A stretch of DNA of 64,000 nt. It comes from Tricholoma matsutake (Eukaryota; Basidiomycota; Agaricomycetes; Agaricales; Tricholomataceae). The position numbers were made by a program, and so were the translations under genes. Every line of letters begins with the position of its first letter. Positions within the stretch are counted from its first letter, which is position 1. The notes below the pieces were generated by a model, which did no database searches, was not told the DNA's origin, and saw only the letters and a program-made list of their open reading frames with translations. Shown in pieces: positions 28,571 through 53,868 of this stretch. The stretch covers positions 3,472,001 through 3,536,000 of the forward strand of contig AP026543.1 in the NCBI GenBank assembly GCA_026075535.2, given 5' to 3'.

Positions 28571-28578
28571 AGCATGTC

Positions 28579-30406: not shown

Positions 30407-30690
30407 CCACCCCCCCTCGCTCGCAAATGCGAGGTGGGGTCGTTCTCTGTTCGTTTCACTCGGGAGCACCGCCACGTCACCACTACCACCCCCTCTCACT
30501 CGCAAATGCGAGTTGGGGGTGGTTCTTCATCTGTTTCTCTCACAACGGCTGCCAAGTCATGACTACCACCCCCTCTTGCTCACAAACGTGAGGTGGGGGT
30601 GTTTCTTAGTTTGCTAACTCACGATGGCTGGTACATCACCGCTACCACCCCCCCTCGCTCACAATTGCAAGTTGGGGGTGGTTCTTCATT
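30406..30690. repeat. Tandem array of four ~80-bp hairpin units
   Basis: Units start at about 30406, 30485, 30565 and 30644. Each carries ACCACCCCC, then CTCGC-AAAT-GCGAG or a variant, then GGGGGTGG, a strong stem-loop. Compensating changes are seen (CTCGC/GCGAG versus CTTGC-type variants), and the spacers between hairpins are less conserved. Confidence 0.88.
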
Positions 30691-32139: not shown

Positions 32140-32846
32140 TGTTAAGAACTGATCCTTTAGGCCACTTCAGAATCTGACCGGACACTGTGGGTGATGATAG
32201 CGGGAGATTGTCGGGTCGATGCGGATTCTGCAGGAGGGGAAACGGAAAGGACTTGGCTTCAGCTTGTAAGAAGCTGCGCCCTTCACCTCGTCTGGTGTCC
32301 TAATTTCAAGTCGAGGGTTTAGAGGTAGGAGCGGGAAAGTGTGGGTAAATGTGGGGAGGAGTACGGAGGGACTTAGGTTAAGTTCAGATGAGACTAGAAC
32401 TTCAGAGGGAGACTAGAGGTTGAGTCGAATGGAGTTCAGACTCTTAGAGGACAGGGGTTGGAGCAGAAGGAGGTTTTAGATTGGCAGGGTAAAGTCGAGT
32501 CTATGTCGATATACGAACTGAGGAATACAAGGCAAAACTAACTAAGCTTAAATCCTGTAGTCCAGAATAATGCGGAACAGGAACGAAGACTGTGGCAGTG
32601 TCTCAACTGCATAGATAAATTATCTAGTGGGAGCCGCACAGGAATCCATAGTCGAATTTGCAATAGAGACGGCAGCCTTGGGAAGGCAGCTGTGGATGCT
32701 GTACAAGGTGGCCTGGTGCACAGCAGTGTGGGCAGTGCAAGGCAGCCGGGAACAAAATTGGGAGGTGTAGGCAAAAGTCATGTTCGACGTGCGGGAAAGG
32801 GTCGGATGGATGTGGGTTCCGATCGGGCGAGGAACGGTTCTTGACA
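32140..32846 (-). repeat. 3' LTR of gypsy A
   Basis: 707 bp, about 96% identical by eye to the copy at 45312-46018, bounded by the ATTAT duplication on the outside and the polypurine tract on the inside. Confidence 0.93.
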
Positions 32847-32984
32847 GTATTTCCCCCTTAGTGCCGAGCCTATGAGGCACGTGAGGGTTTGAGTCCAAAT
32901 GAGGAAGTTGGTTGAATTTTCTGAATGCAGTAATTGGTTGAAAAAAATTTTCACGTTCTTTCCTTCTCCCATCAACTATCAATT

Positions 32985-33985
32985 ATGTCCCCTCCAGCAG
33001 TATCCGCGCAGATCAAATTGGCCACGATGAGGGCCCAACACGAACAGAGGGAGCGGGCAATGAAGGAGCAGATGGAATGGGAGATGAAGGAGCTGGAGGA
33101 AGTGGCAAGGGAGGAGGAGCGCCGGGCGCAGGAGGTGCAGAAGGCAGCAGAGGAGGCTGCAAAGGCTGAGGAGGTGCGCCAGGCAGAGGCGTGGAAAAAA
33201 GAGGTATCAGCCGCAAGATGAGCGGAGAAGAAGCGGGCGGCTGCGGCCGCAGGTTTGGAGGATGAGGCCGAGGGGAGCAAGTCCCCAAAGAAAAAGAAAG
33301 TCGCCAAGTCAAAGGTGCGAGTGGGGTCAGAGGGGTCAGAGGGTCCAGTGCGGGTGCAGGCTGCGTTGCCTTGCAAAAGGTGCATACTTGTTTCCCTTTT
33401 CAGTCTCTTTTTACTGACAAGTGGCCTAGATGCAAATATCAAAAGATCGCTTGTTTCAAGATGGGTGCGAAGGGACGGGTGTGCAACAACTGCATGCGCA
33501 TCAAACATAAGTGCGAGGAGGTAGTGTGGGAGGGGCAGGAAGCCCCTGCGGCAAAACTGGCAGGAATGATGGGGGCGACCGGGGAAAACCCGGAATTAAT
33601 GCAACAAATGATGAAGTTAATAAGGAAGGGGTTTGCTGAGGTGGCTACTGTGGTGCGGGAGTCGATGGGGGAGATTCGGGACGCTTTGGACCCAGAGTGG
33701 GTGGAGGAAGAAAGTGCCAGGGAGGAGGAGGAGAGCAACAAGGGTGACAAAGAGGTGGAGTGGGCGGTGCGAGAGTCCCGGTGGGAAAGACGTGGGATCC
33801 GAAAATCCGGAGATGACTGGGAGGCCTTCCAGAGATATCTGGAGAAAAGGCGAGCTGATGACAAGGAGGAGAGTGAGGATGAAGAAGAGGGTGAGGAGGG
33901 TGAAGAGAAAGATGAGGGCGGAGATGGAGGCAAAGTTGGGGGAGAGGGAGATGAAGATGGAGAGGGAGAAGCGGTGGTAGTGTAG
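32985..33985 (+). pseudogene. Antisense third gene of gypsy A: coiled-coil, Zn2Cys6, acidic tail
   Basis: Runs opposite to gag-pol, starting 138 bp inside the 3' LTR and ending 86 bp from the pol end. Exon 1 is 32985-33379, the intron 33380-33429 (50 nt, GTGCAT...CTGAC...CCTAG), exon 2 is 33430-33985. Together they make 317 codons including the final stop. Residues ~20-75 are a Glu/Lys/Ala coiled coil. A basic SPKKKKVAK stretch follows, then Cys at 130, 133, 140, 150, 153 and 160 (CX2CX6CX9CX2CX6C), the fungal Zn(II)2Cys6 spacing. The C-terminal ~60 residues are mostly Glu, Asp and Gly. Codon 79 is TGA (33219-33221), a probable CGA to TGA change, so this copy is broken. DNA binding is inferred from the motif. 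Confidence 0.8.
33380..33429 (+). other. Intron inside the Zn2Cys6 codons of the gypsy A antisense gene
   Basis: Splits an AGA Arg codon as AG/A in CKRC. Contains TACTGAC as a branch-point-like sequence and ends CCTAG. The same codon is split in element B at 52742-52789. Confidence 0.78.
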
Positions 33986-34407
33986 GGACCCGGTCGGGTT
34001 CAAAAAAAAATCTTTTTTCAATAAAATTTGTTCTGAGTTTGGACTGAGTGAACAAGTAATGTGAATAGTCTTTAAGCGGGTAATGGTCTGGGTTTCTGCG
34101 GGTAGCGGGTGTGAAAATCCGCAAGGAGTTCTTGGGCATGGTCAAGTTCCATAACAGGTAGCCAGGAAGTCTCTTCGTCGGTTCCCTGGTAACCTTCCCA
34201 TCGGACGAGGTAGAGAATCTTGCAGTGACGTCAGTTGTCGACTTTGGAGTTGAGGACTTCGGCGATCTCATATTTGAGCTCGTCATCGATGGTGATTGGA
34301 GGAGGTGGAGGTTGTACTCGATTTGGAATTGTGTTTGGGGAGTGTTTCTCTAGTTGAGAGACATGGAAAACAGGGTGAATGGCCCGCATGTGATCCGGGA
34401 GCCGCAG

Positions 34408-34794
34408 CACTATCTGCTAGCTAAGACCGTGCAGGTTCTCTCTACAAGAAGGGGGTGGGATCCGTGCTCGTGATGGGGGAATTGATGGTTTTGATGCGAG
34501 GGGTTATTAATAGGTGAGTTTGTTGAGATAGGCCTTTCACACCGAAAACATAGGTGGAATACCTAAGAGAACACAACTGGGGTCCCCTAGGCATATATTT
34601 AGGGTTTATATACTATGTTACACATATTGTACATTGTTGTTACCGATGCACTCGTACATGCACATACATTTTGATGCGTGCAAAATAAAATTCTCACGCT
34701 ATCAAAGTGTAGCGTAATTTGGCGTCATGTAGCATAATTTGACATAATAAAATGAAAATGAAATTTTATTAAGTAATGGGGTGGTTTCCTAACA
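34408..34794 (-). repeat. 3' LTR of gypsy C
   Basis: 387 bp shared with the right copy. Its outer end, next to element A, seems to lack about 15 bases that would complete a CTAACA terminus. Confidence 0.85.
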
Positions 34795-34805
34795 TTACCC
34801 CCCTT

Positions 34806-37800
34806 TTATGCCTCGACTTCCAGGCAAGAAAATATTACGTCTGTCCCCTCTGTGAAATTTTGGTAAGGCCGGAATCTCATCCCCTCATACACCATTCTCG
34901 CAATGTGACATGGAGCATTCGGATTACATTTAAAGAATTGGGCGATCGCGTTACACACTTGCTTACAATTCTCTTCGGGTTCCCACGAATTATTTTTGTC
35001 GGTATAGTTTTTCCACTTTATTAAGAACTCCAATTTGTTCCGTTGAAGACATGAGTCTAGAATTTCTTCAACTATGTATTCTGGAGCACCTTCTACTATT
35101 ATCGGAGGTTGCAGAGTAGTTTGTTGGCCAGGAATAGTGGGTGGGCAGTAAGGGCGTAGGCGGGATACATTAATCTCAGGATCAATCTTGAATGATCGGG
35201 GTAATTTTAGCACTACTGCATTAGGTGAGATCACTTTAGAGATCGCATATGGGCCAACTTGTTTCTCCGTAAGTTTCCTCGAAGGTTGTGGAATATTCAG
35301 GTCCCTGGTACTTAGCCATACCAAGTCACCAACTTTGTACTCTGGAGCGCATGCTCAAGTACAATCCGCATGTCGCATCATGTCATCACGTGCTTTCTTC
35401 AATGCCGCCTCTGCTTCCTTTTGTACCTTTTGCATCTTAGATACAAAGTCTTCTACCGACTGTACTTTGACTTCCCTTCTGGGTTCTACTCCCATGCGAG
35501 GATGATATCCATAATTCGTGAAAAAGGGTGACATACGAGTAGCTGAATGGAATTTGTTATTGTGGGAAAATTTGGCAATTGCCAACCATTTGGGCCAGTC
35601 GGTTTGTCGGTATACGTAGGTACTGCTCCAACTCCTGATTCATTCTCTCTGTCTGCCCATCAGTCTGCGGGTGATATGCCGTAGATAATTTAGTTTGAAT
35701 TCCCAATATGTTGTTTAGTTCTCGCATAAACATGGAAGCAAATTGTGGTCTGCGATCGGAGATAACGGTATCGGGTAACCCATGTAACCGCCATACCTGA
35801 TTTAGATAGAGGCGCGCCAAGCCCAATGATGAGGTTTCTGTAGTAGTAGGAATAATATGGACCTCCTTTGTAAAGCGGTCGCATACTATGAATATTGCAT
35901 CGTACCCTTGAGCCTCGGGTGATCCAGTAATAAAATCCACAGATATATCTCGCCATGGCGCTTTAGGTATAGGGTTCAGCATTAATTTTCCTGCAGGTTT
36001 CTCTGGAAATTTCTTCCCCCTCATGCACGTATCACATCCATCCACATACCCCAACACATACTTCGAAATTCCGGGCCACCAATAATTTCTCATTACTAAT
36101 TCCAACGTCTTCCATCTTCCTGGGTGTCCAGCAATTGGCATATTGTGATGTAACTGGATGATCTCCCTTCGCAAATCCTGATCCTTCAGTACATACACTT
36201 TTCCTTGAAACAACACCAACCCTTGTTCCTCAGCCCATTCATCTCCTTTGATATTTCCTTTCTTTTCTCCCTTCAGAGCTTTCACGGCTTCCACTACTTC
36301 ATCGTCCATTTCCGAACATTGTCTAATTTTAGACAACATTTCCATTTCCGAGCTATCTATTGATAGATGCCCTTGATGCATAGCGCAAATGTGAAAGTAT
36401 TTGGGTTTGAGTAAGGTAACATTTTTATTGTCCTCCTCCACCCCCCTTTTATGATCAATACATCTGGATAATGCATCTGCTTTCCTCATTAAGCTTCCTG
36501 CTTTGTGGACCAAGTGAAAGTTGAAACGCGATAGGAATAGTGCCCAATGTGCTTGCCTGTGATTAAGCTTTTTAGTGGACATGAAGTATTGCAGATTTTG
36601 ATGATCCGTCCAGATCTCAATCTCATGCGTACATCCCTCCAAATAATGCCTCCATGCCTCCAATGCTTGTATTATCCCCAACATCTCTTTGTCATGCACA
36701 TCATAATTCCTCTCCACATCATTCAACCCTTTTGACAAGTATGCACAAGGATGCCATTTGTCATCTTTGCACAGCATTGATAATACCGCTCCAGTAGCAA
36801 AATTGGATGCATCGGATTCCACTCACAAAGGGCATGTGAAATCTACTGGGGCTAATATTGGTCCCTCCACAAACTTCCTCTTCAACTCCTCAAACACTGT
36901 CTGCTGCTGCTCTTCCCACCTCCATACTACTCCCTTTCGCATAAGGTTCTGTAAGGGTGTGGCAATTTTGGAAAAATTGTGCACAAAGCGACGATAATAA
37001 TTTGCGAGTCCCAAGAAGGCTTGAACCTCCTTGACATGGGTGGGCGCAGGCCAATCTGTGACCGCCTGTACCTTGATCGGATCCATTTTGATCCCGTCAG
37101 GGCCGATCAATAATCCTAGGAACTCAATCTCGCTTGCCCCAAACACACACTTCTCTGGTTTCAAAAATAGATCATTCTCCGCCAACCTCCGTAACACCTC
37201 CTGCACTATCGCCTCATGATTTTCTTCATCCTCCATGAATATCAGAATGTCGTCAATAAATATTATTACCACGCCTTTGTCTATTACGTCCTTGAAAATG
37301 TTGTTCATCATATTTTGAAAGGTTGGGGGACTATTAGTCATCCCAAAAAACATGACAAGTGGCTCGAAGGATCCTCGATGCGTGGCAAATGCTGCCTTCC
37401 ACTCATCTCCTTTCTTTATTCGTACATTGTTGTATCCCCATCGTAAATCCAATTTTGTAAAGACCTTGGCTTTTCCCACCTTGTCAATTATTTCTGAGAT
37501 CAACGGCAGGGGGTACACATTCTTCACTGTCCACTCATTCAAATACCTATAATTGGTACACATCCTCTTCCTTTGGTCTTTCTTTGGCATGAAGAATATT
37601 GGTGACATCTGCGGTGATTTCGAAGGTCATATGTATCCTTTGCGCAATTGCTCCTTCAGGAATGCATCCACTTCTTCTTGCCATCGGAGATAACAGATAT
37701 ACCTTCGACTTCTTCGGCACAAACCCTGGCTTCATCTCAATCGCATGATCCCATGGCTTCCGCACTGGCATTTGCTCAGACTCCTTCTTCTGGAACACTG

Positions 37801-38650
37801 ACAGATGTTCATGATACACTTTTGGCACCCATTCCTCCACTGGCTTCTCCACCTTCATGATATTCTTGTCCCATGACTGTCCTCCACGAATTGTTCTAAA
37901 GGTTTGCTTCTGCTCTTCTTTCTCGATCATGATTGGAACTTCCCCATTTGGCATTTCCTCATCCTCCACTTCCTCCATTGTAACAGAATACTTTCTTGGA
38001 CATTCTTTCTCTTTCTTTTTCCTTTTTTCCTTCTTCACTTCTTCATCTTCCTCCCATACACATTACATTCCTTAGGACAATGAGTCATTTGTACTTTCCC
38101 AGTTTTCCAATCAATTTCGGGATTATGCTTCCATAACCATGGACATCCTATTATTAGATTGGTTTTCCCAAGATCGCACACTTCAAATACGGCTCGCTCC
38201 TGATGCTCCTGATACTTTAGTACCATAGTCACCTCCTCCTTGATAGTTCCTCCACGATTGACTGTTCCGTCAATATTGTACACCATTATAGGTTGTGCCA
38301 GCTTGTGTGTGTTAATACCATTTCCGGTAATTAAGGATCAATTAATAAATAATCCTGTAGCACCACTATCAAGCAATGCTTCCACATCAATAGCTGCATG
38401 TGTGTCCACTGTCTTCAATTCCACAGTCAAGGTGATTTCTGGTTCTATTCACGCAGAGCAAATAAAGAATTTAGGGGTTTTCGGAAATAGTGCTCAGCAA
38501 TTTTCTTGGTCACATGATTCGTAACAGTTGTACTCCTCCTCGATTTCCTTTTCTGATTTACTCTCGGATACTAATACATTGTAACAATTCTGGGTCACCA
38601 ATGGGGAAACCTTCACTGGGACTCTTCCACAAAATTCTTCTGCCTGCCTT
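34806..38650 (-). pseudogene. Pol of gypsy C
   Basis: Protease LLDSGATGLFIN is followed at once by an in-frame TGA. Reverse transcriptase has intact catalytic blocks (VFTKLDLRWGYNNVRI, IIFIDDILIF). RNase H: ESDASNFATGAVLS, reached through one stop at about 36823. Integrase zinc module: HHNMPIAGHPG...CDTCMRGKK. Core: DFITGSPEAQGYDAIF, VISDRRPQFAS, STAYHPQTDGQTERMNQELE. A break occurs near 35585, another stop near 35355, then a C-terminal chromodomain (EYIVEEILDSCLQRNKLEF, KWKNYTDKNNSWEPEENC). The stop is at 34806. Several frameshifts and stops make it inactive. Confidence 0.9.
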
Positions 38651-39710
38651 CCTCTGGCTTTACTTCCTCGATTGTAGCTTCCCTTATCTTTCTTTTCTGC
38701 CTACAATTCCTAGAAATGTGTCCTAACTGCCCACAGTTAAAACATTTAAGTGGGGCTCGTCTCCCTGCTTGATCAACCTCCATTGCCTCTGCTGGTGCTG
38801 CTGACTCCATAACTATAGGTGTCACCACCATGGCCGGTGGCTGTGCCCTTGGAGCTTGCGCCTGAGGTGCCTTTCCTTTCTCAGACTTTCCTCCAGATGA
38901 CTTTCCAAATTTACTACTTCCATACATCAACTTTGACTCCGCCTGTTCCTGCCGATATTGCCAGTCAAGGCGCATTGCCCAATTATACCACTCGTCCAAC
39001 TTCTCTGGCATAGAAGGTAGTCGGTAGATAGACTTGAATAAGGAGGGATTTAATCCTGCTTCCAAAAACTCTACCAATGCGGCTTCTCCCATGTCCATTT
39101 GCGAAGCTTCTGCTTTGAACTGCAAAATAAATTCATCCGCCATTAGGGAACCTTGGCGCATGGTTTTTAATTTAGCATTGGCTGTCGCCTTTGGATTAGG
39201 GTCTCCAAACTGTGCCTCCAATCTCTCCAGAAATTCCTTGAAGGTTGCAAAAGGTTTATTTCCCACGGCAATTTGATTAATAGCCTCATTTCTCCAGAAC
39301 TGTGCTTTCCCCCCCTGAATATATGAGAGAGCAAACATAAACCTAGACTCGGCTGTATGAAACTCTGGCTTCCTCCCATGGATGTACAATACTATAGAGC
39401 TGATGAAGGATTTTGTATTCTCCATGGTACCGTCAAAGATTTGTGGGGGCGCATACTTAGGTAAGCACACTTTTCCATTTCTGGATTTCTCCACCATCTC
39501 ATCCTCCTGCGATACCCACTCCACCATCTCCACCATCTCATCATCTTTTTCTCCTATCGTCTCTGGCTGTACTTCCGCTTGTCTGGGCTGTGATGCTGCC
39601 AATACTGACACTAATTGCAACATTTGTGCTGTGAGCGCATCAATGTTTGCCTCTAGTGCTGGTATGGGAACAGGATTAGGACCAGGATTAGAAGTTGAAG
39701 GTTCAGACAT
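38613..39710 (-). CDS. Gag of gypsy C, intact
   Basis: 365 codons without interruption. Starts MSEPSTSNPGPNPVP, has a capsid-type block (FMFALSYIQGGKAQFWRNE, FKEFLERLEAQFGDP, LKTMRQGSLMADEFILQF), a Lys/Gly/Pro linker and one zinc knuckle CFNCGQLGHISRNC, and ends KNFVEESQ. The pol frame overlaps the end of gag and reads on as CGRVPVKVSP, as expected for frameshift-fused Gag-Pol. It is the only uninterrupted gag in the window. Confidence 0.9.
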   Translation of the reverse strand: MSEPSTSNPGPNPVPIPALEANIDALTAQMLQLVSVLAASQPRQAEVQPETIGEKDDEMVEMVEWVSQEDEMVEKSRNGKVCLPKYAPPQIFDGTMENTKSFISSIVLYIHGRKPEFHTAESRFMFALSYIQGGKAQFWRNEAINQIAVGNKPFATFKEFLERLEAQFGDPNPKATANAKLKTMRQGSLMADEFILQFKAEASQMDMGEAALVEFLEAGLNPSLFKSIYRLPSMPEKLDEWYNWAMRLDWQYRQEQAESKLMYGSSKFGKSSGGKSEKGKAPQAQAPRAQPPAMVVTPIVMESAAPAEAMEVDQAGRRAPLKCFNCGQLGHISRNCRQKRKIREATIEEVKPEEGRQKNFVEESQ

Positions 39711-40197
39711 AATTGTAGAATCTGTGATGAATCACTTCTTCGACAAATTCAAAATTTTTTCTTCGAGACCTCTCCAAACGTTTATGGGTCACGTGATAAG
39801 GTTCATCGAGGTTCATCAATCGTTCGTCGTTCGTCGGGCGCCTATTTTGACACTTCGGATCAATAACCCTTCCAACAGTGCCTGATCTTGGAGATATCGC
39901 TGAATTTGGCTTGTAACTAAAATAGTTGTCCGAATAGAGTAATGTAAATCGTAACTAAACCAGATCTGATCGGTTGTCTGGTTGCAGCTGTCCTAATGAT
40001 GAGCGCTGCCTCTCGATCACTGGTGGTTGCAATGTAAGGCAAGGCCTGGCGTCGGCTTACAAAAGAAAAGGTAGATTACATATATACAAGTACTTCCGGC
40101 TCGTGCCGAAAGGATGAGTAATCGGATGTGGCGCAGTGAAACAATGATGTATGCGCAAGTAAGAGAAGGCACACTGATATGGGTAGTTGTGTTCTTC

Positions 40198-40599
40198 TGT
40201 TAGGGCGACACCCACTATCTGCTAGCTAAGACCGTGCGGGTTCTCTCTACAAGAAGGGGGCAGGATCTGCGCTTGTGATGGGGGAATTGATGGTTTTGAT
40301 GCGAGGGGTTATTAATAGGTGAGTTTGTTGAGATAGGCCTTTCACACCGAAAACATAGGTGGAATACCTAAGAGAACACAACTGGGGTCCCCTAGGCATA
40401 TATTTAGGGTTTATATACTATGTTACACATATTGTACACTGTTGTTACTGATGCACTCGTACATGCGCATACATTTTGATGTGTGCGAAATAAAATTCTC
40501 ACCCTATCAAAGTGTAGCATAATTTGGCGTCATGTAGCATAATTCGACATAATAAAATAAAAATGAAATTTTATTAGGTAATGGGGTGGTTTCCTAACA
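40198..40599 (-). repeat. 5' LTR of gypsy C
   Basis: The shared part is 40213-40599. Extending to 40198 gives a terminus CTAACA that mirrors the TGTTAG start, as LTR ends usually do, so the true LTR may be 402 bp. Confidence 0.8.
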
Positions 40600-43500
40600 G
40601 TGACTGAGTGAGTGCCTGGGCAGGCGATGATTTCAAAGGGGCCATGGTGCTTTTCGGAAAGTTTCTTGGAAGGACATGTGGTGCGGATATTTTCCGCAGT
40701 GACATAGGCAGAATCACCAATGTTGAAGTCAGGTGTGGGTGCCCGATGTTTGTCCGCAGGACCTTGATAATGCTCTTGAGCGGCCGCAAGTTGTTTCCGA
40801 AGCTCCTGATGAAGGTCATCTAAGTCGACGATGAACTTGTGGGCGCGCTGTGAAGCTAAGTCACATTCTGGAAAGACAGAAATGTTTGGGTGATAGCCTT
40901 TGTTGGCAAAGAAAGGGAATACACCTGTAGAGGCGGAAGGAGCATTGTTGTAGGCAAATTTGCCCAAGGGTAAGAGGTGAGACCAGTCATCCTGCTGATA
41001 GTTGCAGAAGATCTGGAGGTACTGCTCCAAGGTCTGATTAAGTCATTCTGTCTGACCATCACCTTGTGGGTGATAACCGGAAGTGAAGTGGATCCGCATG
41101 TCAAGTGCTTTTCCGAGGGAGCAGAAAAAATGGGAGACAAACTCGGATCCCCGGTTGCAAGTGACGTGCGATGGAATGCCATGCTTGGAGAAGACATGGA
41201 GGACGAACAGGATGGCTAGTTCTTGGGCTGTGATCTCATTGACAGTTGGGATGAAGATGCCTTGCTTGGTGAGGCGGTCAACGATGACCAGGATAGCAGT
41301 GTGACCGTCGGAGTCGGGTAGTTGTTCAATGAAGTCCATGGAGATGGAGTTCCAAGGTTGTTCTGGAACCAGAAGTTGCTTTAGAAACCCGTAGGGCTTG
41401 TGTCAAGGTGACTTGGATCATTTGCAAGTGGTACAGGTTTTGCAGAATTCCTGCACAAAGGTGCAGAGGTTTGGCCAAACATATTCCTGGTGGACAAGCT
41501 GCTGGGTTTTGTTTTGTCCAAAGTGGCCAGAGAGGATGTGATCGTGTTTGTACTGAAGGACCTTGAGGCGAAGATCCACAATGTCTGGAACATAAATCCG
41601 GTCGAAGTGGTGGAGAAGACCTGCCTTGTCTATGGTCCAGTTGGGGTCGACAGGTGTCAGAAGATGTGTGCAGATGTCATGGTGGAGTTTCTCAACATCC
41701 ATGATTACTGCTTGTTGAAGAATGGGTGTGGCGAAATAGGTGGCGCAGAGGGAAGAGGTGAGCTGTTCCTGTGTGAATACAGGTTGGAAGTTGGTTGGGT
41801 TTATGGAGGCGAAGTTGCTATTTCCCCCTTTGCGGTAGACGTCCCAACATCTAGTGAGTGCATCTGGCTTGGCCCCTAGTTTTCTGGGGCGGAAGCAGAT
41901 GATGAGATTGAATTGGGAAAGGTACTCAGACCAACGGGCCTGGCAGCGGGTGAGCAACTTGGTAGTGCTGAAGTACTCAAGATTTTTGTGGTTGGTGACC
42001 ACATCAACCGGGTTTGTGGAACCCTCGAAATACTGCCACCAGTGTTTGAAGGCCTCGAAAATGGCCAAGAGTTCCTTATCATGGGTGTCATAATTTAGTT
42101 CAGCAGGATTGAAGGAGCAGGAATGAAAGGCGACCGGATGGATTTCTCCATCCACAGTGTAAACCGAAAGGATAGCTGCTAGGGCATAGTCGGAAGCGTT
42201 GGTTTCGAGTACCATCTGTGAGTCAGGTACCCATTGTGTTAAGACGGGGGCATGGGTGAATTCTTGTTTGAGCTTTTCAAAAGCATCATGGCACTTCTTG
42301 TTGAAGTCCCAGGGTGCGGATTTCTGCATTAAGCGGGTAAGTGGGACAACAATGTCTGAATAGCTGTTAATGAAGCGGTGGTAAAAGTTGCAAAAGCCTA
42401 AGAAGGATTGAATATCCTTAACTTTCCTAGGCTCGGGCCAGTCAAGCACAGTTTTGACTTTATCCTCGGACATCTGCAGTCCATCCGGTGAAAGGATGAA
42501 ACCCAAATATTTGACAGTGTCTTTGTGGAACTCACATTTCTGTGGAGAGGCATAAAGTCCATTTTTCCAGAGATGGTGGAGGACTTCTTTGACGTGAGCC
42601 CCATGCTGGGACTTGTCATCGGAATAGATTAGGATGTTGTTGAGGTATACAATGACACAAACATCCAGCATGTCACTGAAGATGTTGTTCATAAACCGCT
42701 GGAAAGCTGCGGGTGCATTAGTGAGCCCAAAGGAGACCACCAACCACTCGAAGGATCCGTAGCGGGTGTGGAAAGTAGCTTTCCACTCATCACCATCAGC
42801 GATGCAGACTAGGTGATAAGCGTGCCACAAGTCTATTTTGGTGAACAAGCAGGCTTTGCGGGGAGAGTCAAGTAGGTCGGAAATGAGAGGAAGTGGGTAG
42901 CAGTCTTTCTTTGTAAGATGGTTAAGTCCTCGGTAGTCGACACAAAGTCGGAGACTACCATCCTTCTTCTTGACAAAGAGAATCGGAGTGCCATGCGGAG
43001 ACTTGGATGGGCAGATGAAACCTGAGCAGACATTTTTGTCAATAAAGACTCATAAGGCTTCTAATTCAGAGGGGGAGAGAGAATACATTTGGCCTGGAGG
43101 CAGAGGAGTATTATCTTCTGTCTCTATCTTGAGGTCATAAGACCGATGCGGAGGAAGGGTATCCACTTTAGTCTTATTAAAGACATTAGCAAATTCGTGA
43201 TACTCGGGCGGAATATCAGAGAGGTTGGAGGAGTTAGCAGAATGGGTGGAGCAGGCAGATAACCCTTCTGGAGCGAAGGTCATCTGAAAAGCTATTGCCC
43301 CAGGAAGTTTGCTAGCATGCACATAAGCGGCAGCATTGATGAAGGAGATGTTGGGAGGTGTAAACTTAGGAGGAATGGGGGGTTCAGGAAGTGCGGAAGA
43401 GTCAAGGATTTCTACCAGAAGATTCGGGGACAAAGGTGACATCAGGGGTGCTGGACCTCTATGATCTGCAGAGCGGAAAGCGAGTTGGCTTGAAGACCAG

Positions 43501-43918
43501 TCAATCAACGGATTGTATTGCTTCAGCCAGTTATGACTGAGTATGGTGGAACAGGAAGAGTCAAGCGAGGTTACATAAAATGACAAATTGAATAATTCAC
43601 CGGCAGGGAAGGTGACCGGAAGTTTGACGATCTGAGTTATGGAGGAGTTGCAAGTTCCATCAAAGAGTCGTAAACTGATCGGGTTAATGGATTCTGTGCT
43701 GAGTTGGTTATTCAACACGAAAGAGGAGTCAAGGAAGCAGTGGGAGGAGCCAGAGTCGATAAGGGTTCGGAAAGGGGCAGAAGAGTCAGGAAAGGTTAAA
43801 AGAATGGTTAGGGAGTCAGGGTTGGAAAGAGCAGACATGTTGAGACAAACATAGGCAGCCAACTGGGTAAGGTCAACACAACCCCCAGCCCCAATGGCTG
43901 TATCCTGAGGGTTGCGGA

Positions 43919-45271
43919 CTATTTTTCCGAGTCTGTAGTCTCAGAAACGACAGTGGATGCACAGGCTTTTGTGGCTTTGGATTTTGGGCAGTTTCCTGCT
44001 ACATGTCCTTCTTCACCACAGTAGAGGCAGAGTCTTTCTCTCATGCAGCGTTCTCATTCCTCCCCAGTAAGCTTGCCATTCTTCCCCAGCTTATCAGAGA
44101 TGGACGACTTGGGCTTGTCCTGGGGAGTGTTCTTTGTCATGGAAGACTTCTGGTTTGATGGTGGGGAAGGACCTTTGGAAGAGTCTTTCCGACTAGAGTT
44201 AGTGATGTTACTGGAATTCTTTGTTTTGAAATGGGATTCATCTTCTTGCATCCAGTAGATGTCGTCGCTGTCTTGTGCTTTCAAGCGCAACTCTGCAAGA
44301 GTGTTGGGTTTACCACCCCAGAGAACTTCTATGCAAAGCCGGAGTGGAAGACCGCAGAAATAGCGGTCACGAAGGGCTGCTTCGTTCCAGTTGACCCTAG
44401 AAGCTAATTCCCAGAAGTCAACATTATATTTCGTGATACAACCACCTTTCTTCATTGCTAAGTCAGAGAGAGCCTTTTCCGCATCTCTGACCGGGTTGTG
44501 TGGACCGAAGTTACTTTCCAGCTCGGCGAGGAAAGCCTCATAGTCCCACATCCAGTGTGCGGAATCTGTTGGGTCATTAAGACCAGGTTCAAACCAACTG
44601 AGAGCTGATCCTTTAAGATAAGAAAGGATAAATATGATCTTTTTCTCATCAGAGGAAAATACGTGTGGGCGGTCGCGGAAATGAAGATTACACAAGACTA
44701 GAAAGTCTCTAAGTTTCTTTGGGTTGGAGCCATCAAAAGTGTTGGGGTCGTGAACTTTTATTTTCTTGGTCTTGGGTGCATTGTTTTGTCGGAGGGTGCA
44801 GATACTCTCCGAGAGGTTGTAAAGAACATCTATGAATCTATCCCCTGGATCAGGGTTTCCCCCTGTGGGAGGTTGATTGTCAGGATCATTGGGATCGGGG
44901 TCACCCCCAGGGCTGTCCGGACCGCTAGGGTCATCGGGTCCACCAGGAGGTCCGTCCTCTAGACCACGATCTTCCAACCCATAGGGTTCAGGCTGGTTGA
45001 TGCCCCCTACGTACTCAAGGGGAGTTCTTGATCAAAAACCTTCTGGGTTGCCGGAAGGTTGCGGGGCATGGGTGGACATGAGATTGGCACTGATTGAGGG
45101 GGCTCCTGAGCCGATTTGTTGGAAGATGTTTGAGGGTCTGGAAGACACTCCAAATGTAGTAGCGGGTTGAGGGTCAGAAAGGGTGGATCGCTGGATTGCA
45201 GACATCCCTGGAATAGTACCGGCACATTGGGAATTCCTGGTTGTGTGCTGGCGAGTTTTGGTTGGGGTCAT
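43919..45271 (-). pseudogene. Gag of gypsy A
   Basis: Starts MTPTKTRQHTTRNS at 45271, matching the start of element B gag. A stop at 45032-45034 interrupts the N-terminal part. An Asp/Pro/Gly-rich stretch then leads into the capsid-like region (ILSYLKGSALSWFEPGLND, KYNVDFWELASRVNWN). A TGA at 44054-44056 precedes the zinc knuckle CLYCGEEGHVAGNC. The final stop is at 43919. Confidence 0.88.
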
Positions 45272-45311
45272 AAGAGGAGAAGAGATGAGTGAAGTGAGAG
45301 TTCATATATAC

Positions 45312-46018
45312 TGTTAAGAACTGATCCTTTAGGCTGCTTCAGAATCCGACCGGACACTGCAGGTGATGATAGCGGGAGATTGTCAGGTCGATGCGAATTC
45401 TGCGGGAGGGGAAACGGAAAGGACTTGGCTTCAGCTTGTAAGAAGCTGTGCCCTTCACCTCGTCTGGTGTCCTAATTTCAAGTCGAGGGTTTAGAGGTAG
45501 GAGCAGGAAAGTGTGGGTAAATGCGGGGAGGAGTACGGAGGGACTTAGGTTAAGTTCAGATAAGACTAGAACTTCAGAGGGAGACTAGAGGTTGAGTCGA
45601 ATGGAGTTCAGACTCTTAGAGGACAGGGGTTGGAGTAGAAGGAGGTTTTAGATTGGCAGGGTAAAGTCGAGTCTATGTCGATATACGAACTGAGGAATAC
45701 AAGGTGAAACTAACTAAGCTTAAATACTGTAGTCCAGAATAATGCGGAACAGGAATGAAGACTGTGGCAGTGTCTCGACTGCATAGATAAATTATCTAGC
45801 GGGAGCCGCACAGGAATCCATAGTCGAATTTGCAATAGAGATGGCAGCCTTGGGAAGGCAGCTGTGGATGCTGTACAAGGCGGCCTGGTGCACAGCAGTG
45901 TGGGCAGTGCAAGGCAGCTGGGAACGAAATTGGGAGGCGTAGGCAAAAGTCATGTTCGATGTGTGGGAAAGGGTCGGATGGATGTGGGTTCCGATTGGGC
46001 GAGGAACAGTTCTTGACA
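45312..46018 (-). repeat. 5' LTR of gypsy A
   Basis: 707 bp. Downstream in the sense direction the internal region begins GTATATATGAACTCTCACTT. This is similar to the first bases inside element B (GTATTTACAAACTCTCACTT) and not of the TGG... type expected for a standard tRNA primer site, so another primer or self-priming may be used. Confidence 0.93.
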
Positions 46019-46509: not shown

Positions 46510-47081
46510 TGTCAAGACCGATTCTTCTGACCAGACTTCCAATTGTTTTCTGCCCCCCTTCCCAGCCGCCTTACATCACAGCCCACCTCCTATCAGCAGC
46601 ACTGCCTAGAGGTGAAATTCCCTCATTTCCAATTAGGTGAAACGGTTTCAGGATTTGCCTCGGAAGCCGGTTTTCATATTAACCACAGCCTCGGAAACTC
46701 TGACCTTAGTATTTAAGCTAGCTACTTTCATTTTGTATCACCAGTTTGTAAATCAACCAAGTCTCCCACTTAATCCTATCCTCTTTAAACTCCAATTACA
46801 TTCTCGAACTCTTACTCATCCTCTCTGGAAATTCTCTGGACCTCTGGTCATCTTCCTTACCCTTGCCTTGAAATTAGGACACTTGACGAGGAGAAGGACA
46901 CAACTTCTTATAAGTTGAAGCCAAGTCCTTTCTGCTCCCCCACTTGGTACGACACATCAAGTAAACCCTGCCCCAGATTTCCATAGGATTCCCTGTCTTA
47001 CTCGATCCATCCTCTACAACTTCTATCGTCCAGGTACAACTGGAATTCCAACAACTTCCCCTTCAAGTTCAGTACTTAACA
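46510..47081 (+). repeat. 5' LTR of gypsy B
   Basis: 572 bp, starting TGTCAAGACC after ATCAT and ending ACTTAACA. Confidence 0.93.
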
Positions 47082-47129
47082 GTATTTACAAACTCTCACT
47101 TCTCTTGTCAACCCATCCCATCTTTCCTT

Positions 47130-48536
47130 ATGACTCCTACTGAGTCACAAACCCAACAAACTACAAGAAACTCCCACCATGCTGGTGTGGTACCAGGATT
47201 ATCAGCAATATGCTGATCCATACTTCCTTCCCCTAGACATGCTTCGACTTTTGGTGCATCCACCAGACCATCCAACATCTTCAGGCAAATTGGTTCTGGA
47301 GCACCCTCCATCAGTGCTAATGTCATGTCTCAACCTCCAGAGACCCCTTGGAATACGACTCCACTTGAGTACGTAGAGAATGTTGGGCAACCTAACCCCT
47401 TTGACACAGAAGGTCCAGGTAAAGAGGATGGACTTACTGGTGGTCCTGATGACCCTAGCGGTCCTGACGGCCCTGGGGATGACCCCGATCCTGACGACCC
47501 TGATGACCCTCTACCTCCCATTGGCAGAAATCCTGATCCAGGAGATAGGTTTCTCAATGCTCTCTTCAAGCTCTTGGATAGTCTCCGAATCCTCTGGCAG
47601 AACCAAGCACCCAAGACCGAGAAGATCAAAGTTTGTGATCCTGACACTTTTGATGGGGCTAATCCCCAGAAACTTTGGGACTTCCTAGTCTCGTGCAACC
47701 TTCACTTCTGCAATTGTCCTCAGGTATTCACCTCTGACAAAAAGAAAATTCTATTCATCCTTTCCTACCTCAAAGGGTCAGCTCTTAGCTGGTTTGAACC
47801 TGGACTCAATGACCCAACAAATTCTGCCCATTGGATGTGGAACTACAAGGTATTCCTTAGTGAGTTGGAAAGTAATTTTGGTCCTCATGACCCTGTCGGG
47901 GATGCAGGAAAGGCTCTTTCAGAACTCACAATGAAGAAAGGTGGAAGAATAGTGAAGTATAATGTGGACTTCTGGGAACTGGCTTCCCGGGTCAACTGGA
48001 ATGAGGCTGCTCTTCATGACTGGTATTTCCATGGTCTTCTGCTCCATCTCCGCATAGAAGTCTTATGGAGGGGACGACCCAAAACTCTAGCATCCCTAAA
48101 TCTTAAAGCCTAGGATGCTGACAACATCTATTGGATGCAGGAAGAAGAAACCCACTTAGAAACAAAGACCCCCGGAAATTCCGCTCACACCAGAAAGAAG
48201 GAAATTAAAGGTTCTCCTAGCTCCAATTCCAACACTCAGTCCAAACCCCAGCCCTCATCCAGCACCAACTGCACAAACCAATCCTCATCCAGCAGCTCCT
48301 CTGGGTCAAAGAACAACTTCCAGAAGGACAAGCCAAAAAACTCTATTTCTGACAAGTTGGGGAAAGATGGTAAACTAACCAGAGATGAGCGTGAACGCCG
48401 CATGAAGGAAGGACTTTGCCTCTACTGTGGCGAGAAAGGACATGGAGCCAGGAATTGTCTGAAGTCCAAAGCAGCCAAAGCCCATGCTGCAGCAGTCACT
48501 GAGTCCAAGCCAGACTCTGTGGACCCAAAAAAATAG
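47130..48536 (+). pseudogene. Gag of gypsy B
   Basis: Starts MTPTESQTQQTTRNS. A TGA at 47214-47216 sits where element A has Arg. After an Asp/Pro-rich stretch comes the capsid-like region (ILSYLKGSALSWFEPGLND, KYNVDFWELASRVNWN). A TAG at 48111-48113 sits where A has Gln (LKAQD). The C-terminal part has a Ser/Gln linker and the zinc knuckle CLYCGEKGHGARNC. It ends at TAG 48534-48536, immediately after a run of seven A. Confidence 0.9.
48527..48533 (+). promoter_or_regulatory. Putative -1 frameshift site at gag/pol junction of gypsy B
   Basis: Seven A residues sit in gag phase as A AAA AAA directly before the TAG. A -1 slip reads on as KIVCNPQEHAIGAEGC, which matches the protein in the pol frame of element A (CNPQ, then GCVDL). 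The heptamer has the classical X XXY YYZ form. In element A the corresponding site is shortened to G GAA AAA. Confidence 0.55.
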
Positions 48537-51500
48537 TCTGCAACCCTCAGGAACATGCCATTGGGGCTGAGGGTTGCATTGACCTTTTCCAACTGGCTGC
48601 TTACATCTGTCTCAACATGTCCGCTCTTTCTGATGCTGAATCCCTTACCATCCTGTTATCCCTTTCAAACAATCCCTAAAAATCAAAACTCTTATCGACT
48701 CTGGTTCCTCACATTGTTTCCTTGATTCATCATTTGTGCGGGACAACCAACTTAGTACCAAAACCATTCCTCCGATCGGACTCCAACTATTTGATGGAAC
48801 TTGTAACTCCACCATAACTCAAGTCATGGAACTCCCAGTCACTTTTCTGTCTGGTGAAGTGTTCAATCTGACATTTTATGTAACCTCACTGGACTCTTCC
48901 TGTTCTGCAGTACTTGGTCATAACTGGCTGAAGCAATACAATCCATTGATTGACTGGTCTTCAGGCCAAATAAATTTCCGTTCCGCAGCTCAAAGAGGTC
49001 CTGCCCCCTTGACGTCCTCCAACTCTCCTATCTTATGTGAGTCACCTTCACCTTTGAACCTTCCAGCGGAAACCCGTGAAAACCCCATAATCACTAAACC
49101 CTTGAAACTTGTACCTCCTGAGATCTCTTTCATCAATGCTGCCACTTACATGCATGCAAGCAAACTTCCTGGGGCTGTTGCTTTTCAGATGACATTCTCC
49201 CTGGAAGGACTGGTGGCTAAATCCTCAGCATTGTCCAGGAATCCCCTGGACCTTTCTGATGTTCCAGAAGAATATCATGAATTTGCAGATGTTTTCAACA
49301 AACAAAAAGCCAACACCCTTCCTCCACACTGTCCCTACGACCTCAAGATAGAGACGGAGGATAATGCTCCCCCACCTCCAGGTCGCATGTACTCCCTCTC
49401 TCCCTCTGAGCTCGAGGCTCTCCAAATATTCATTGAAGAAAATGTTCATTCAGGCTTCATCTGCCCCTCCAAATCCCCTCACGGCGCTCCTATACTCTTT
49501 GTCAAGAAAAAGGATGGGAGTCTCCAACTTTGCGTCGACTACCGGGGACTCAATTGCATCTCAAAAAAGGACTGCTACCCACTTCCTCTAATCTCGGATC
49601 TCATGGACTCTCTGGGAAAGGCATGTGTGTTCACAAAAATTGACCTCCGGCATGCTTATCACTTAGTCTGCATTGCTGAGGGAGATGAATGGAAGACCAC
49701 TTTCTGCACGTGCTATGGTTCTTTTGAGTGGCTGGTAGTTCCTTTCGGACTCACCAATGAACCTGCTGCCTTCCAGCACCTCATGAACAACATCTTCAGT
49801 GACCTATTAGATGTCAGCGTCATTGTCTATCTCAACGATATCCTAATCTACTCCAATGACATGAGTCAACACAAAGGCTCACATCAAGGAAGTCCTCCGG
49901 AGACTCCAGAAGAATGGCCTCTATGCTGCTCCACAGAAATGTGAGTGCCATAAAGACAGCATGGAATACTTGGGGTTCATCCTCTCTCCAGATGGGCTCT
50001 GGATGTCCAAAGATAAAGTCAAAACCATCCTTGACTGGCCCAAACCTCGAAAGGTTAAGGATATCCAATCCTTCCTGGGATTCTGCAACTTCTACCGACA
50101 GTTCATCCACAGATATTCCGACATCGTCATTCCACTCACCAGACTCACCCGGAAACATATGCCTTGGGACTTTGGCAAGAAATGTCAAGGAGCCTTCAAC
50201 AAACTAAAAGAAGAATTCACTCATGCCCCAATACTCACTCAATAGCTACCAGATTCCCACATTATCTTGGAGACAGACACCTCAGATTATGCCTTAGTGG
50301 CAATCCTTTCCATCTATACCTCAGATGGAGAAATCCACCCAGTTGCATTCCACTCTCGTTCCTTCAACCCAGCTGAATTTGACTATGACACCCACAATAA
50401 GGAACTTCTTGCTATCTTTGAAGCTTTCAAACACTGGCGACAGTACCTCAAAGGTTCCGGAAATCCAATAGATGGGGTCATGGATCACAAAAACTTGGAA
50501 TACTTCAGTACCACAAAACTCCTTACTCATTGTCAAGCTCAGTGGTCAGAATACCTTTCACAGTTCAACCTTGCCATCCGCTTCCGCCCTGGTAAACTAG
50601 GGGCTAAACCCAATGCGCTCACTAGACGCTGGGACATCTACCGCAAAGGGGGAAATAGTGACTTTGCCTCAGTAAATCTGAGCAACTTCCATCCAGTCTT
50701 TACTCAAGAACAACTCACATCCTCCCTCCGAGCCACTTTCCTTGCTACTCCTATCCTCCATCAAGCCATTCTCATGGATGTTGAAAGACTCCACAATGAT
50801 ATTCAATCTTCACTTCCTCTTGATCCCATCTCCTCCTCACACATTCCTTCACCATCCACCCCAAATTGGTCTCTAGATGACAGCAGACTTCTCTGCCACT
50901 TTGACCAGATTTACATTCCAGATGTTGTGAACCTCTGTCTTAAAGTCTTACAATACAAGCATGACCACATCCTCTCAGGTCACTATGGGCAAAACAAGAC
51001 TCTTCAGCTTATCTGATGGGAATACATCTGGCCCAATCTCTGCACCTTTGTGCAGGACTTTTGCAAGTCTTGTACTACCTGCAAACACTCCAAATCTCAC
51101 AAACCCTACAGATTTCTGAAGCAACTTCCAGTCCCAGAAAGGCCTTGGAACTCAATTTCCATGGACTTCATTGAACAGTTACCAGACTCCAATGGTCACA
51201 CTGCCATCCTAGTCATTGTAGACTGACTCTCCAAACAGGGTATCTTCATCCCCACAGTAAACAAAATCACAGCACAAGAACTCACTAATCTCTTTGTCAT
51301 GCACGTCTTCTCCAAACACGGTGTTCCATCCCACGTCACCTGCGACCGGGGTTCCAAGTTCATTTCCCTTTTCTTCCACTCTCTTGGGCAAGCCCTGGAC
51401 ATGAAAATCCATTTCACTTTGGGTTACCATCCAGAAGGCGATGGACAAACTGAACGCCTCAACCAGACCCTCAAACAGTACTTGCAGATCTTCTGCAACT

Positions 51501-52237
51501 ACCAACAGGACAACTGGTCCCAGCTTTTACCCTTGGGGGAATTTGTGTACAACAATGCTCCCTCAGCTTCCACCAGAGTTTCACCCTTCTTTGCCAACAA
51601 GGGTTACCACCCAAACATCACGGTTTTCCTGGAGCGTGAACTAGCCTCGCAACATGCACACCATTTTGTGGTTGACCTTGATGATCTCCACCAGGAACTC
51701 CGGAAGCAACTCTCAGAAGCACAGAAGTGCTATCAAGGTCCTGCAGACAAATGCTGGGCACCCGCTCCTGACTTCAAAATCAGTGATTACACTTTTGTCA
51801 AAGGCGAGCACCTACGCACTACAAGACCCTCCAAGAAGCTCTCAGAAAAGTTCTATGGCCCTTTCAAGATCATTGCCCATCCAGGTACTCACTCAGTTAC
51901 CCTTCGACTTCCAGATCACCTCGGGGGTGTCCACCCAGTATTCCATCTCTCCCAACTAGAAGAAGACACTCCCAACACAATTCCTAATCGTATTCAACCT
52001 CCACCTCCTCTGGTCATTATAGACAATGAACTGGAGTACGAGATTGCGGAAATCCTCGATTCAAAGATTGACAACCGCTGTCGATGCAAGTTACTCTATT
52101 TTGTATGGTGGGAAGGTTACCAAGGAACCGACGAAGAAACCTCCTGGCTTCCAGCTACAGAACTTGATCATGCCCAGGAACTTGTTATGGACTTTCACAC
52201 TCGTTACCCAGGGAAACCCGGACCTCTTTCCACTTAA
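48534..52237 (+). pseudogene. Pol of gypsy B
   Basis: Protease TLIDSGSSHCFLDSSF follows a frame break near 48660. Reverse transcriptase: VFTKIDLRHAYHLV and VYLNDILIYS, with the first Asp of YxDD replaced by Asn. A frameshift lies near 49875. RNase H: ETDTSDYALVAIL, after a TAG. Integrase zinc module: HDHILSGHYG...CKSCTTC. Integrase core: MDFIEQLPDSNGH, a TGA near 51224, CDRGSKFIS, GYHPEGDGQTERLNQ. C-terminal chromodomain: about 52035-52200 (YEIAEILDSKIDN, WEGYQGTDEETSWLP). Stop at 52235-52237. Related to A throughout; non-functional as it stands. Confidence 0.92.
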
Positions 52238-52317
52238 CACCCTTCTTTTCAAAACAAGATCCTCAAAAATTATTATTAGAAAATTTAAAAGAAAACTCCA
52301 GATTCCCCGCCCATTCC

Positions 52318-53148
52318 CTACTCCTCCCCTACTCCCTCACCCCCTGCTTCATCAGCGAGTCCTGGCAGCTCCCCTTGTACCTCCAACTCCTCCTCCTTTT
52401 CACCCTCTTCTTCTTCATCTTCTTCCTCCTCTTCCTCCTGGTTCCACTCCAGATCCAATGCCACTAGGATATCCAACATCATTTCTTGGATGCTGATCAC
52501 ACCCTCGCTTATCACCTGGAGCTCCTGGAGTTCCTGCATTTCTTTCTTCACCCCCTTTACCGCCCCCACCAACTCCTTAAGCAACTCCATCACTCCCTTG
52601 TTCTCCCCTAGCCCAGGTCCTGCCTGCAACACCTGGCCCTCCCACACCACCTCTTTGCACTTGTGCTTCGCTTTTGTGCAGGGCTCGCAGGCCTGACCCC
52701 GGGTTCCCGTCCGGAAACACGACAACTTTTGATTTAAACATCTACTAGAAGTCAGCATACAAGGGCAACAAGAATAAAAAGTGACTCACCTTTTGCACAA
52801 AATAGTGGCTTGTAGCTGCAAGGGGACTTCATTCTCAGGCACCTCTGCTCTCGCCTTTCCTTTTGCCTTCTTCTTGGGGGGGGAGCTCCCTTCAGCCTCT
52901 TCAGGCTCCACTTCTCTGGCTTTCCGCTTCTTTTCCACCCTCTTAGTGGCAGCAGTCTTCTTCTGTTCCTCCTCTGCAGCCTTTTTCTTGGCCTCCACCC
53001 TAGCCGCCTCCACTTTGGCAGCCTCCTCAGCTGCTCGGCGCTCCTCAGCTTCCCTGGCCTCTTCTTCCAACTGGAGCTCTTCCATCAATTGCTCCTGCTG
53101 GGCCTTGATGGCCGCTATCTTTTCCGCATATGAGGGGACAGTGGACAT
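52318..53148 (-). CDS. Antisense third gene of gypsy B: coiled-coil, Zn2Cys6, acidic tail
   Basis: On the strand opposite to gag-pol, tail-to-tail with pol (80 bp apart) and starting 138 bp inside the 3' LTR. Exon 1 is 53148-52790, the intron 52789-52742 (48 nt, GTGAGTC...GCTGAC...TAG), exon 2 is 52741-52318. Together they give 260 residues with no stop. Start MSTVPSYAEKIAAIKAQQEQ; residues ~10-80 are a Glu/Ala/Lys coiled coil; a basic stretch PPKKKAKGKAR; Cys at 118, 121, 128, 138, 141 and 148 (CX2CX6CX9CX2CX6C, Zn(II)2Cys6 type); a helical part; an acidic run of Glu; end EGVGEE. Same layout as the copy in A. Open although gag and pol of its host element are broken. A DNA-binding regulator is the obvious reading, unproven. 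Confidence 0.82.
52742..52789 (-). other. Intron inside the Zn2Cys6 codons of the gypsy B antisense gene
   Basis: 48 nt, GTGAGTCA...GCTGACTTCTAGTAG, splitting the AGA Arg codon of CKRC as AG/A, exactly as in element A. Without splicing, the first two Cys are cut off from the other four. Confidence 0.8.
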
Positions 53149-53231
53149 CTTGGTCGAAGGGAGTGAAGGGGTGTGGTGGTGGTTGAAAAAAAAACCCTGG
53201 GAACCCATCAACATCAAAATCAACATACCCA

Positions 53232-53285
53232 ATTTGGATTTGAACCTTCACGTGCCTCGTAGGCTCAGCACTAAGGGGGAAATAC
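53232..53285. promoter_or_regulatory. Conserved block at the pol-distal edge of the 3' LTR, element B
   Basis: About 54 bp including the polypurine tract are nearly the same as 32847-32900 of element A, while the rest of the leader up to the antisense ATG has diverged. On the minus strand it holds GGTTCAAATCC, which fits a Pol III B-box consensus. In A the matching word is GGTTTGAGTCC. Role unknown; it could serve plus-strand priming, the antisense promoter or both. Confidence 0.5.
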
Positions 53286-53868
53286 TGTCAAGACTGATTC
53301 TTCTGACCAGACTTCTGATCGCTTTCTGCCCCCCTTCCCGGCCACCTTACATCACAGCCCACCTCCTATCAGCAGCACTGCCTAGAGGCGAAATTCCCTC
53401 ATTTCCAATTAGGTGAAATGGTTTCAGGATTTGCCTCGGAAGCTGGTTTTCATATTAACCACAGCCTTGGAAACTCCCACCTTAGTATTTAAGCTAGCTA
53501 CTTTCATTTTGTATCACCAGTTTGTAAATCAACCAAGTCTCCCACTTAATCCTATCCTCTTTAAACTCCAATTACATTCTTAAGTTATTCTCAAACTCTT
53601 ACTCATCCTCTCCGGAAATTCTCCAAACCTCTGGTCATCTTCCTTACCCTTGCCTTGAAATTAAGACACTTGACAAGGAGAAGGACACAACTTCTTATAA
53701 GTTGAAGCCAAGTCCTTTCTGCTCCCCCACTTGGTATGACACATCAAGTAAACCCTGCCCCAGATTTCCATAGGATTCCCTGTCTTACTCGATCCATCCT
53801 CTACAACTTCTATTGTCCAGGTACAACTGGAATTCCGACGACTTCCCCTTCAAGTTCAGTACTTAACA
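53286..53868 (+). repeat. 3' LTR of gypsy B
   Basis: 583 bp. Differs from the 5' LTR by about 25 substitutions by eye, mostly transitions, and by a short insertion near 53580. Confidence 0.93.

Follow-up and report, generated by a model that had tools for sequence, protein, structure and literature searches.

Do the Ty3/gypsy retrotransposons of the mushroom Tricholoma matsutake carry a third gene, antisense to gag and pol, and what would its protein do? The question is raised by two elements, termed A and B, in a 64,000-nt window of contig AP026543.1 (positions 3472001-3536000; "the window" is this whole stretch), which were followed through a genome of 161,040,721 bases on 13 contigs. An earlier sequence-only reading had claimed that these two diverged elements each hold, between pol and the 3' LTR, an antisense gene for a protein of the Zn(II)2Cys6 type.

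Elements A and B and their antisense genes

The elements and genes are placed as follows, in window coordinates.

46510-53868, plus strand: element B, Ty3/gypsy with chromodomain, 7359 bp, flanking repeat ATCAT
46510-47081, plus strand: 5' LTR of B, 572 bp
51299-52237, plus strand: 3' end of B pol with SH3_Tf2-1 and chromodomain (Pfam)
53286-53868, plus strand: 3' LTR of B, 583 bp
52790-53148, minus strand: gene B exon 1, with E/A/K-rich coiled-coil-like part, PPKKKAKGK basic stretch and first cysteine of the cluster
52742-52789, minus strand: gene B intron, 48 nt, GT..AG, between CKR and C of the cluster
52318-52741, minus strand: gene B exon 2, with five cysteines, predicted long helix and acidic tail
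52657-52797, minus strand: gene B zinc cluster CX2CX6CX9CX2CX6C, intron included
32140-46018, minus strand: element A, Ty3/gypsy, split by a nested element, flanking repeat ATTAT
32140-32846, minus strand: 3' LTR of A, 707 bp
45312-46018, minus strand: 5' LTR of A, 707 bp
32985-33379, plus strand: gene A exon 1, in-frame TGA at 33219-33221
33380-33429, plus strand: gene A intron, 50 nt, GT..AG, position same as in B
33430-33985, plus strand: gene A exon 2

LTRs, a 5-base flanking repeat and a polypurine tract are all present, as in Ty3/gypsy elements; the flanking repeats and the exact TG starts of the A and B LTRs were read by eye from the flanks. The LTR pair of B is 94% alike over 583 columns and that of A 96% alike. 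In B, gag and pol are broken into five open pieces (47325-48113, 48135-48536, 48736-49944, 50267-51016 and 51299-52237), with RVT_1, RT_RNaseH, SH3_Tf2-1 and Chromo above the Pfam cut-offs, as in a chromovirus, Integrase_H2C2 and the gag zinc knuckle below them, and a Pfam match of gag to DUF4939. CCHC spacing is found in the gag of both elements, and A was classed as Ty3/gypsy through its DNA similarity to B. Element A is interrupted in the 3' end of its pol by a nested element with a chromodomain (34408-40599; LTR matches at 34408-34794 and 40213-40599, 96% alike). The pol frame of this nested element stops about 11 bp before its LTR, so that there is no room for an antisense gene, and none is present.

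Both A and B contain, between pol and the 3' LTR, a two-exon gene on the strand opposite to the element. The gene of B runs from an ATG at 53148 to 52318 on the minus strand and gives a stop-free spliced product of 260 aa, while its counterpart in A (32985-33985, plus strand) is built alike except for one TGA in exon 1. By eye, both proteins have an E/A/K-rich N-terminal part, a basic stretch of the PKKKxK type and an acidic tail, and the motif CX2CX6CX9CX2CX6C is read in both after predicted splicing. The shared plan claimed earlier (coiled coil, basic stretch, six-cysteine motif and acidic tail) is thus confirmed from the spliced translations, at an exon-2 identity between A and B of about 41%.

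Several further features of the window were observed. The spacer by the polypurine tract is alike in A and B (32847-32900 and 53236-53285), and on its antisense strand in B it holds a tRNA B-box-like sequence, GGTTCAAATCC, together with CACGTG, a possible promoter or priming feature; a tRNA scan of the 64-kb window found no tRNA. A near-perfect inverted repeat with 151-nt arms, 95% complementary and spaced by 125 nt, lies at 28150-28576, and tandem arrays with units of 142 nt and 80 nt occupy 29814-30674.

Copies in the genome and their linkage to gypsy elements

Searching the genome with exon 2 gave at least 150 matches for B (the best 150 of 710 first-look candidates) and at least 150 for A (the best 150 of 747 candidates). 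The two sets are without overlap and hold at least 300 matches in total, on all 13 contigs. Stops occur in 46 of the 150 B-type and 4 of the 150 A-type matches listed, leaving 104 and 146 respectively free of them.

Sixty B-like copies (L012-L071), picked by similarity to B, were fetched with their surroundings. Exon 1 was matched in 58 of them, and gypsy pol or LTR/spacer sequence adjoins the gene in all 60. The 3' end of pol lies near the gene on the opposite strand in 58; the two exceptions are L021, in which the gene is joined to an internal stretch of pol, and L060, in which LTR and spacer lie next to it. LTR or spacer sequence on the fitting strand is found in 53 copies, and the other 7 have the pol 3' end. 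Homologs standing alone as host genes, an outcome that had been named as speaking against the earlier claim, account for 0 of the 60, a set picked by similarity to B in which distant host genes could be missed.

Linkage was also seen from the side of the chromodomain. Among 150 chromodomain matches listed, 106 pair with a listed match of the gene, with starts 363-966 bp apart and opposite strands in every pair (106/106). Eight of the remaining 44 were sampled, and all eight hold at least part of the gene: the full extent in three (L080, L084 and L085, with frame breaks in L080 and L085), and a gene lacking its zinc part in five (L078, L079, L081, L082 and L083), a proportion biased toward zinc-part loss because these loci came from those missed by the zinc-based search. 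Together, the linkage and the eight partial or full genes indicate that this gypsy lineage carries the gene regularly and has done so since before A and B split. The coordinates, the linkage and the many matches bear out the claim of two diverged elements with an antisense gene between pol and the 3' LTR.

Three of the eight sampled loci had been picked for long open pol frames, of which two (L082 and L083; 939 and 839 aa) are without the zinc part and the third (1237 aa) has it. The existence of open-pol elements without this part means that not every recently open element requires the gene in cis. Some elements have lost the zinc core of the gene and perhaps rely on other copies. As stop-free pol frames with the zinc part lost, L082 and L083 may be deletion derivatives that transposed using the help of others.

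A conserved intron inside the cluster

The intron falls between the first two cysteines, and the motif is therefore complete in neither exon alone. Exon 1 could be placed in 54 of the 60 B-like copies (6 were not placeable), and of these 52 have the donor GT, 53 an intron of 45-50 nt, and 50 all six cysteines. The acceptor AG is found in 57 of the 60, and the same junction in all nine A-like copies examined (the A of the window and 8 fetched). An alignment of 28 exon-2 sequences shows no variation at four of the five cysteines, at K25 or in WEGQ, and the remaining cysteine is present in at least 90% of them. Since genomic RNA is the sense strand, splicing should leave the antisense intron in place there, and the intron would hence survive retrotransposition.

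One relative outside this genome was found when a 28-row exon-2 profile was compared with 5.8 billion proteins and the best 7980 candidates were scored. This protein, P0001 (218 aa, on a contig of 970 bp), bears the source label lgn, which we take to denote a collection of assembled public reads. It is contiguous across the predicted junction, as would be expected of an mRNA, which is indirect evidence that an antisense mRNA is spliced, although the alternative of an intron-less genomic copy stands. P0001 was rejected as a transcript of the genome studied here: its partial identity to that genome is at most 72% (best 150 of 1217 candidates), and it is therefore likelier to come from another species or strain. 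With P0001 as the query, only P0001 itself was recovered among 58 candidates, and residues 100-215 of spliced B gave 51 candidates among the 5.8 billion proteins, none at E 0.001. Fungi may be poorly represented in these protein collections, and little weight can be given to the lack of further relatives. Scans of viral and prokaryote contigs produced 72 and 12 pattern matches respectively, none of them confirmed, and a search of PDB sequences returned one chance match (E 0.99).

Purifying selection on the antisense protein

The gene of B is open beside a broken gag and pol, and the sequence-only reading took this as a hint that it had stayed useful. The observation stands, but by itself it says little; that the gene is useful is argued instead from a comparison of dN/dS among copies. 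This was computed by NG86 for up to 61 copies (59 with exon 1, 61 with exon 2 and 59 with pol), with values of 0.225 for exon 1, 0.206 for exon 2 (first 98 codons) and 0.30 for the 3' end of pol. In pairs with dS above 0.8 the exon-2 value drops to 0.156; such a fall with depth is expected where young pairs differ mostly through decay after insertion. The pol value also falls with depth, to 0.235, but is 0.329 in the 79 deepest pairs. Pairs are non-independent and CpG decay lies outside the model, neither of which accounts for the frame-specific, fourfold effect seen in a six-frame control (54 and 61 copies). There, the gene's own frame is the lowest, at 0.21 in both exons, against 0.79-1.34 in four other frames and 0.36 and 0.30 in the mirror frame that shares third positions. 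The gene is under purifying selection as a protein, and the neutral value near 1 that would have told against the earlier claim was not seen (0.21-0.23 in its own frame across copies). The frame-specific selection and the matches in the genome, at least 300, lie well beyond what chance would give.

The antisense protein diverges faster than pol. Once within-clade decay is subtracted, net dN/dS between clades (for the 48 copies in which every part is present; the smaller clades have only 4-6 members) is 0.08-0.16 for exon 1 and 0.09-0.21 for exon 2, compared with 0.07-0.08 for pol where defined, so that constraint on pol is the stronger on this measure. Stops per 100 codons number 0.30 in exon 1, 0.16 in exon 2 and 0.44 in the 3' end of pol, a comparison biased by the picking of copies through exon-2 similarity. 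Mean dS is 0.63-0.84 for the gene versus 0.36 for pol, for which recombination is the only explanation offered. Distances in exon 1 correlate with those in exon 2 and pol at rho 0.42-0.43, whereas exon 2 and pol correlate at 0.76, which suggests recombination, possibly by template switching, near exon 1.

Positions with arginine in some of the copies L012-L071 hold tryptophan, glutamine or histidine in others, as CpG decay gives. DNA methylation or a RIP-like process may lie behind this pattern.

Nature of the zinc cluster

The Zn_clus family (PF00172) has the spacing CX2CX6CX5-12CX2CX6-8C, into which the CX2CX6CX9CX2CX6C of A and B fits. However, at E 1 neither spliced B nor the exon-2 frame of A, from which the first cysteine is missing, matched Pfam Zn_clus, and P0001, with all six cysteines, did not match it either. 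The same model finds 21 clusters elsewhere in the genome, none of which, compared by eye, is at a locus among the antisense-gene matches listed.

The half-motifs of the cluster were scored against nine host clusters taken from 10 of the 21 PF00172 loci, one duplicate being dropped, with one second half of odd length also left out. On this small training set, first halves resembled canonical second halves in 15 of 16 distinct cases and second halves resembled canonical first halves in 14 of 15, the first half of A being ambiguous (+0.9). The order typical of PF00172, with the basic half first, was not found. The cluster thus looks swapped or convergent, Zn2Cys6-like rather than a proven member of Zn_clus, and of the Zn(II)2Cys6 identity claimed earlier the six-cysteine spacing holds while the family match and the order of the halves do not. 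Agaric genomes hold other small proteins with a cluster of reversed plan. To our knowledge, a binuclear zinc-cluster topology of reversed order has not been described.

AlphaFold, run with exon 2 alone, predicted one long helix at residues 48-112 after the cluster (pLDDT about 80), and pLDDT below 50 for the cluster region, in a model that lacks the first cysteine. Like fungal Zn(II)2Cys6 (PF00172) factors, the antisense protein has matching six-cysteine spacing, a helix after the cluster and an acidic region; unlike them, it has no HMM match, its half-motifs are seemingly exchanged and it is encoded by a retrotransposon.

A symmetric site in the LTRs

One stretch of 74 bp, 84% alike, is common to the LTRs of both elements and contains a 17-bp inverted repeat.

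53688-53704 and 46901-46917: CAACTT-N5-AAGTTG, B LTRs
32260-32276 and 45432-45448: CAGCTT-N5-AAGCTG, A LTRs

Four exact copies of the repeat occur in the window, one per LTR of A and B. Allowing at most one mismatch, 5 matches were found against 0.72 expected, and none of 100 shuffles reached five, for a pattern derived from these same LTRs. The 74-bp block is present in 52 of 68 loci searched, with perfect arms in 46 of the 52: 31 of the version CAACTT/AAGTTG and 15 of CAGCTT/AAGCTG. One half-changed form was also seen. B-like copies carry both versions (31 and 13), unsorted by pol distance, and one double change spread by recombination would do to account for both. The site is symmetric and is being maintained, through paired changes.

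This inverted repeat is a candidate target of the antisense protein, but it may instead act as RNA or for another protein. A hairpin formed by the RNA of the LTR block was considered and found unconvincing (z-scores -0.67 to -1.50). The repeat is without a CGG triplet, and no conserved CGG..CCG pair occurs in the LTR or spacer of B, leaving recognition of the Gal4 type unsupported; CGG pairs were rejected as an LTR operator, the single pair lying inside the gene.

What the antisense protein may do

The simplest role for a protein of this plan would be to regulate the expression or silencing of the element that encodes it. The gene would give rise, from its place between pol and the 3' LTR, to a spliced antisense mRNA, whose protein would enter the nucleus through the PKKKxK stretch, dimerise through its coiled coils and bind DNA through the binuclear zinc cluster. 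Its acidic tail would then act in trans on the transcription or chromatin of the LTRs of its own family, most likely as an activator or anti-silencer, since selection on copies rewards activation or anti-silencing more directly than a brake. Taken as a whole, this account of a nuclear, dimeric, DNA-binding self-regulator is judged to have slightly better than an even chance of being right. Against it, a protein acting in trans should be only weakly selected per copy. A more specific version, in which the reversed-order cluster recognises CARCTT-N5-AAGYTG and thereby activates or de-silences sister copies, is speculative and on balance improbable; if true, it would give fungi a counterpart of HBZ or of the anti-silencing proteins of plants.

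The opposite sign is possible but unlikely. Here, the antisense transcript or protein would lower sense transcription from the 5' LTR in the manner of HBZ, which would keep copy number or damage to the host in check. The layout resembles that of retroviral antisense genes near the 3' LTR, as the available text on these describes them (PMC10186651), but Pfam gave no bZIP row for the protein and a brake is harder to maintain by selection between copies.

It is rather doubtful that the protein acts after transcription, as a nucleic-acid or chromatin protein in packaging, nuclear import or the choice of integration site. A basic zinc protein with a coiled coil and a dN/dS within the range of pol would suit such work; however, both elements already have a CCHC knuckle in gag, the pol of B has a chromodomain, and antisense mRNA would be an odd supply route for a structural protein. 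Replacement of the nucleocapsid was set aside because gag has its own CCHC.

The cysteine spacing also fits host zinc-cluster proteins, as if a captured host transcription factor gene were carried as a passenger with no role in the element. This is very improbable given a dN/dS far below 1 across diverged copies, the location of all 60 fetched copies in elements and the 0 of 21 PF00172 matches at loci listed for the gene. That the frame is open by chance, facing a conserved feature of the sense strand or lying in low-complexity DNA such as the acidic and E/K/A-rich parts, has a negligible probability, as dN/dS is lowest in the gene's own frame with no sense-strand frame lower, and the splice sites and cysteines are conserved.

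Relation to known systems and significance

The layout of the self-regulator's gene matches that of antisense genes in plant Retand elements and retroviruses, with no shared domains found. HBZ is a bZIP protein, with the basic plus coiled-coil plan of a regulator. Antisense genes near the 3' LTR are described for HTLV-1 (HBZ) and other retroviruses in the available text of PMC10186651, and the matsutake gene likewise lies antisense near the 3' LTR of a retroelement. Unlike HBZ, it encodes a zinc cluster with no bZIP row in Pfam and belongs to a mushroom retrotransposon, known here from sequence alone.

Retand elements are non-chromovirus Ty3/gypsy elements of flowering plants, nearly all of which carry an antisense TRP28 ORF between pol and the 3' LTR, according to the part of the report available (PMC11963269). 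DNA binding is predicted there for the Retand antisense ORFs, and the author found no relatives of them outside transposable elements (PMC11963269). As far as that text allows comparison, A and B have the antisense ORF at the same place, whereas they gave no TRP28 (PF04195) row and a chromodomain is present; the matsutake gene also differs in being fungal, in its zinc cluster, in the intron inside that cluster and in having its selection measured.

Among fungal elements, marY1 (AB028236), a gypsy element of T. matsutake, is given as 6047 bp with a 426-bp LTR in the available text of PMC10211490. By these lengths alone it is set apart from B (7359 bp, LTRs of 572 and 583 bp) and from A (LTRs of 707 bp). 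In a survey that covers agarics, the Fig. 3 legend names an 'add. ORF' whose function is unknown, in a gypsy element either of a fungus or of a spikemoss (PMC2864245). This is likewise an extra gypsy ORF, whose element, strand and sequence are not given in the text available, from which the words 'antisense' and 'zinc' are also absent. A literature search, its scope short on subscription papers, found no fungal antisense zinc gene described. The antisense-gene layout is thus already known, and a conserved, spliced antisense zinc gene in fungal gypsy elements was not found described and appears to be new.

LTR elements make up 37% of the T. matsutake genome (PMC10211490, available text). Many small 'zinc-cluster' genes of this genome are genes of transposons and not host regulators, which calls for caution in annotation. 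A conserved spliced antisense gene in a fungal gypsy lineage would extend the layout to a third kingdom, with another putative nucleic-acid-binding domain, and offers an accessible system, through yeast reporters and DNA-binding assays, for how a retrotransposon may act on its own copies.
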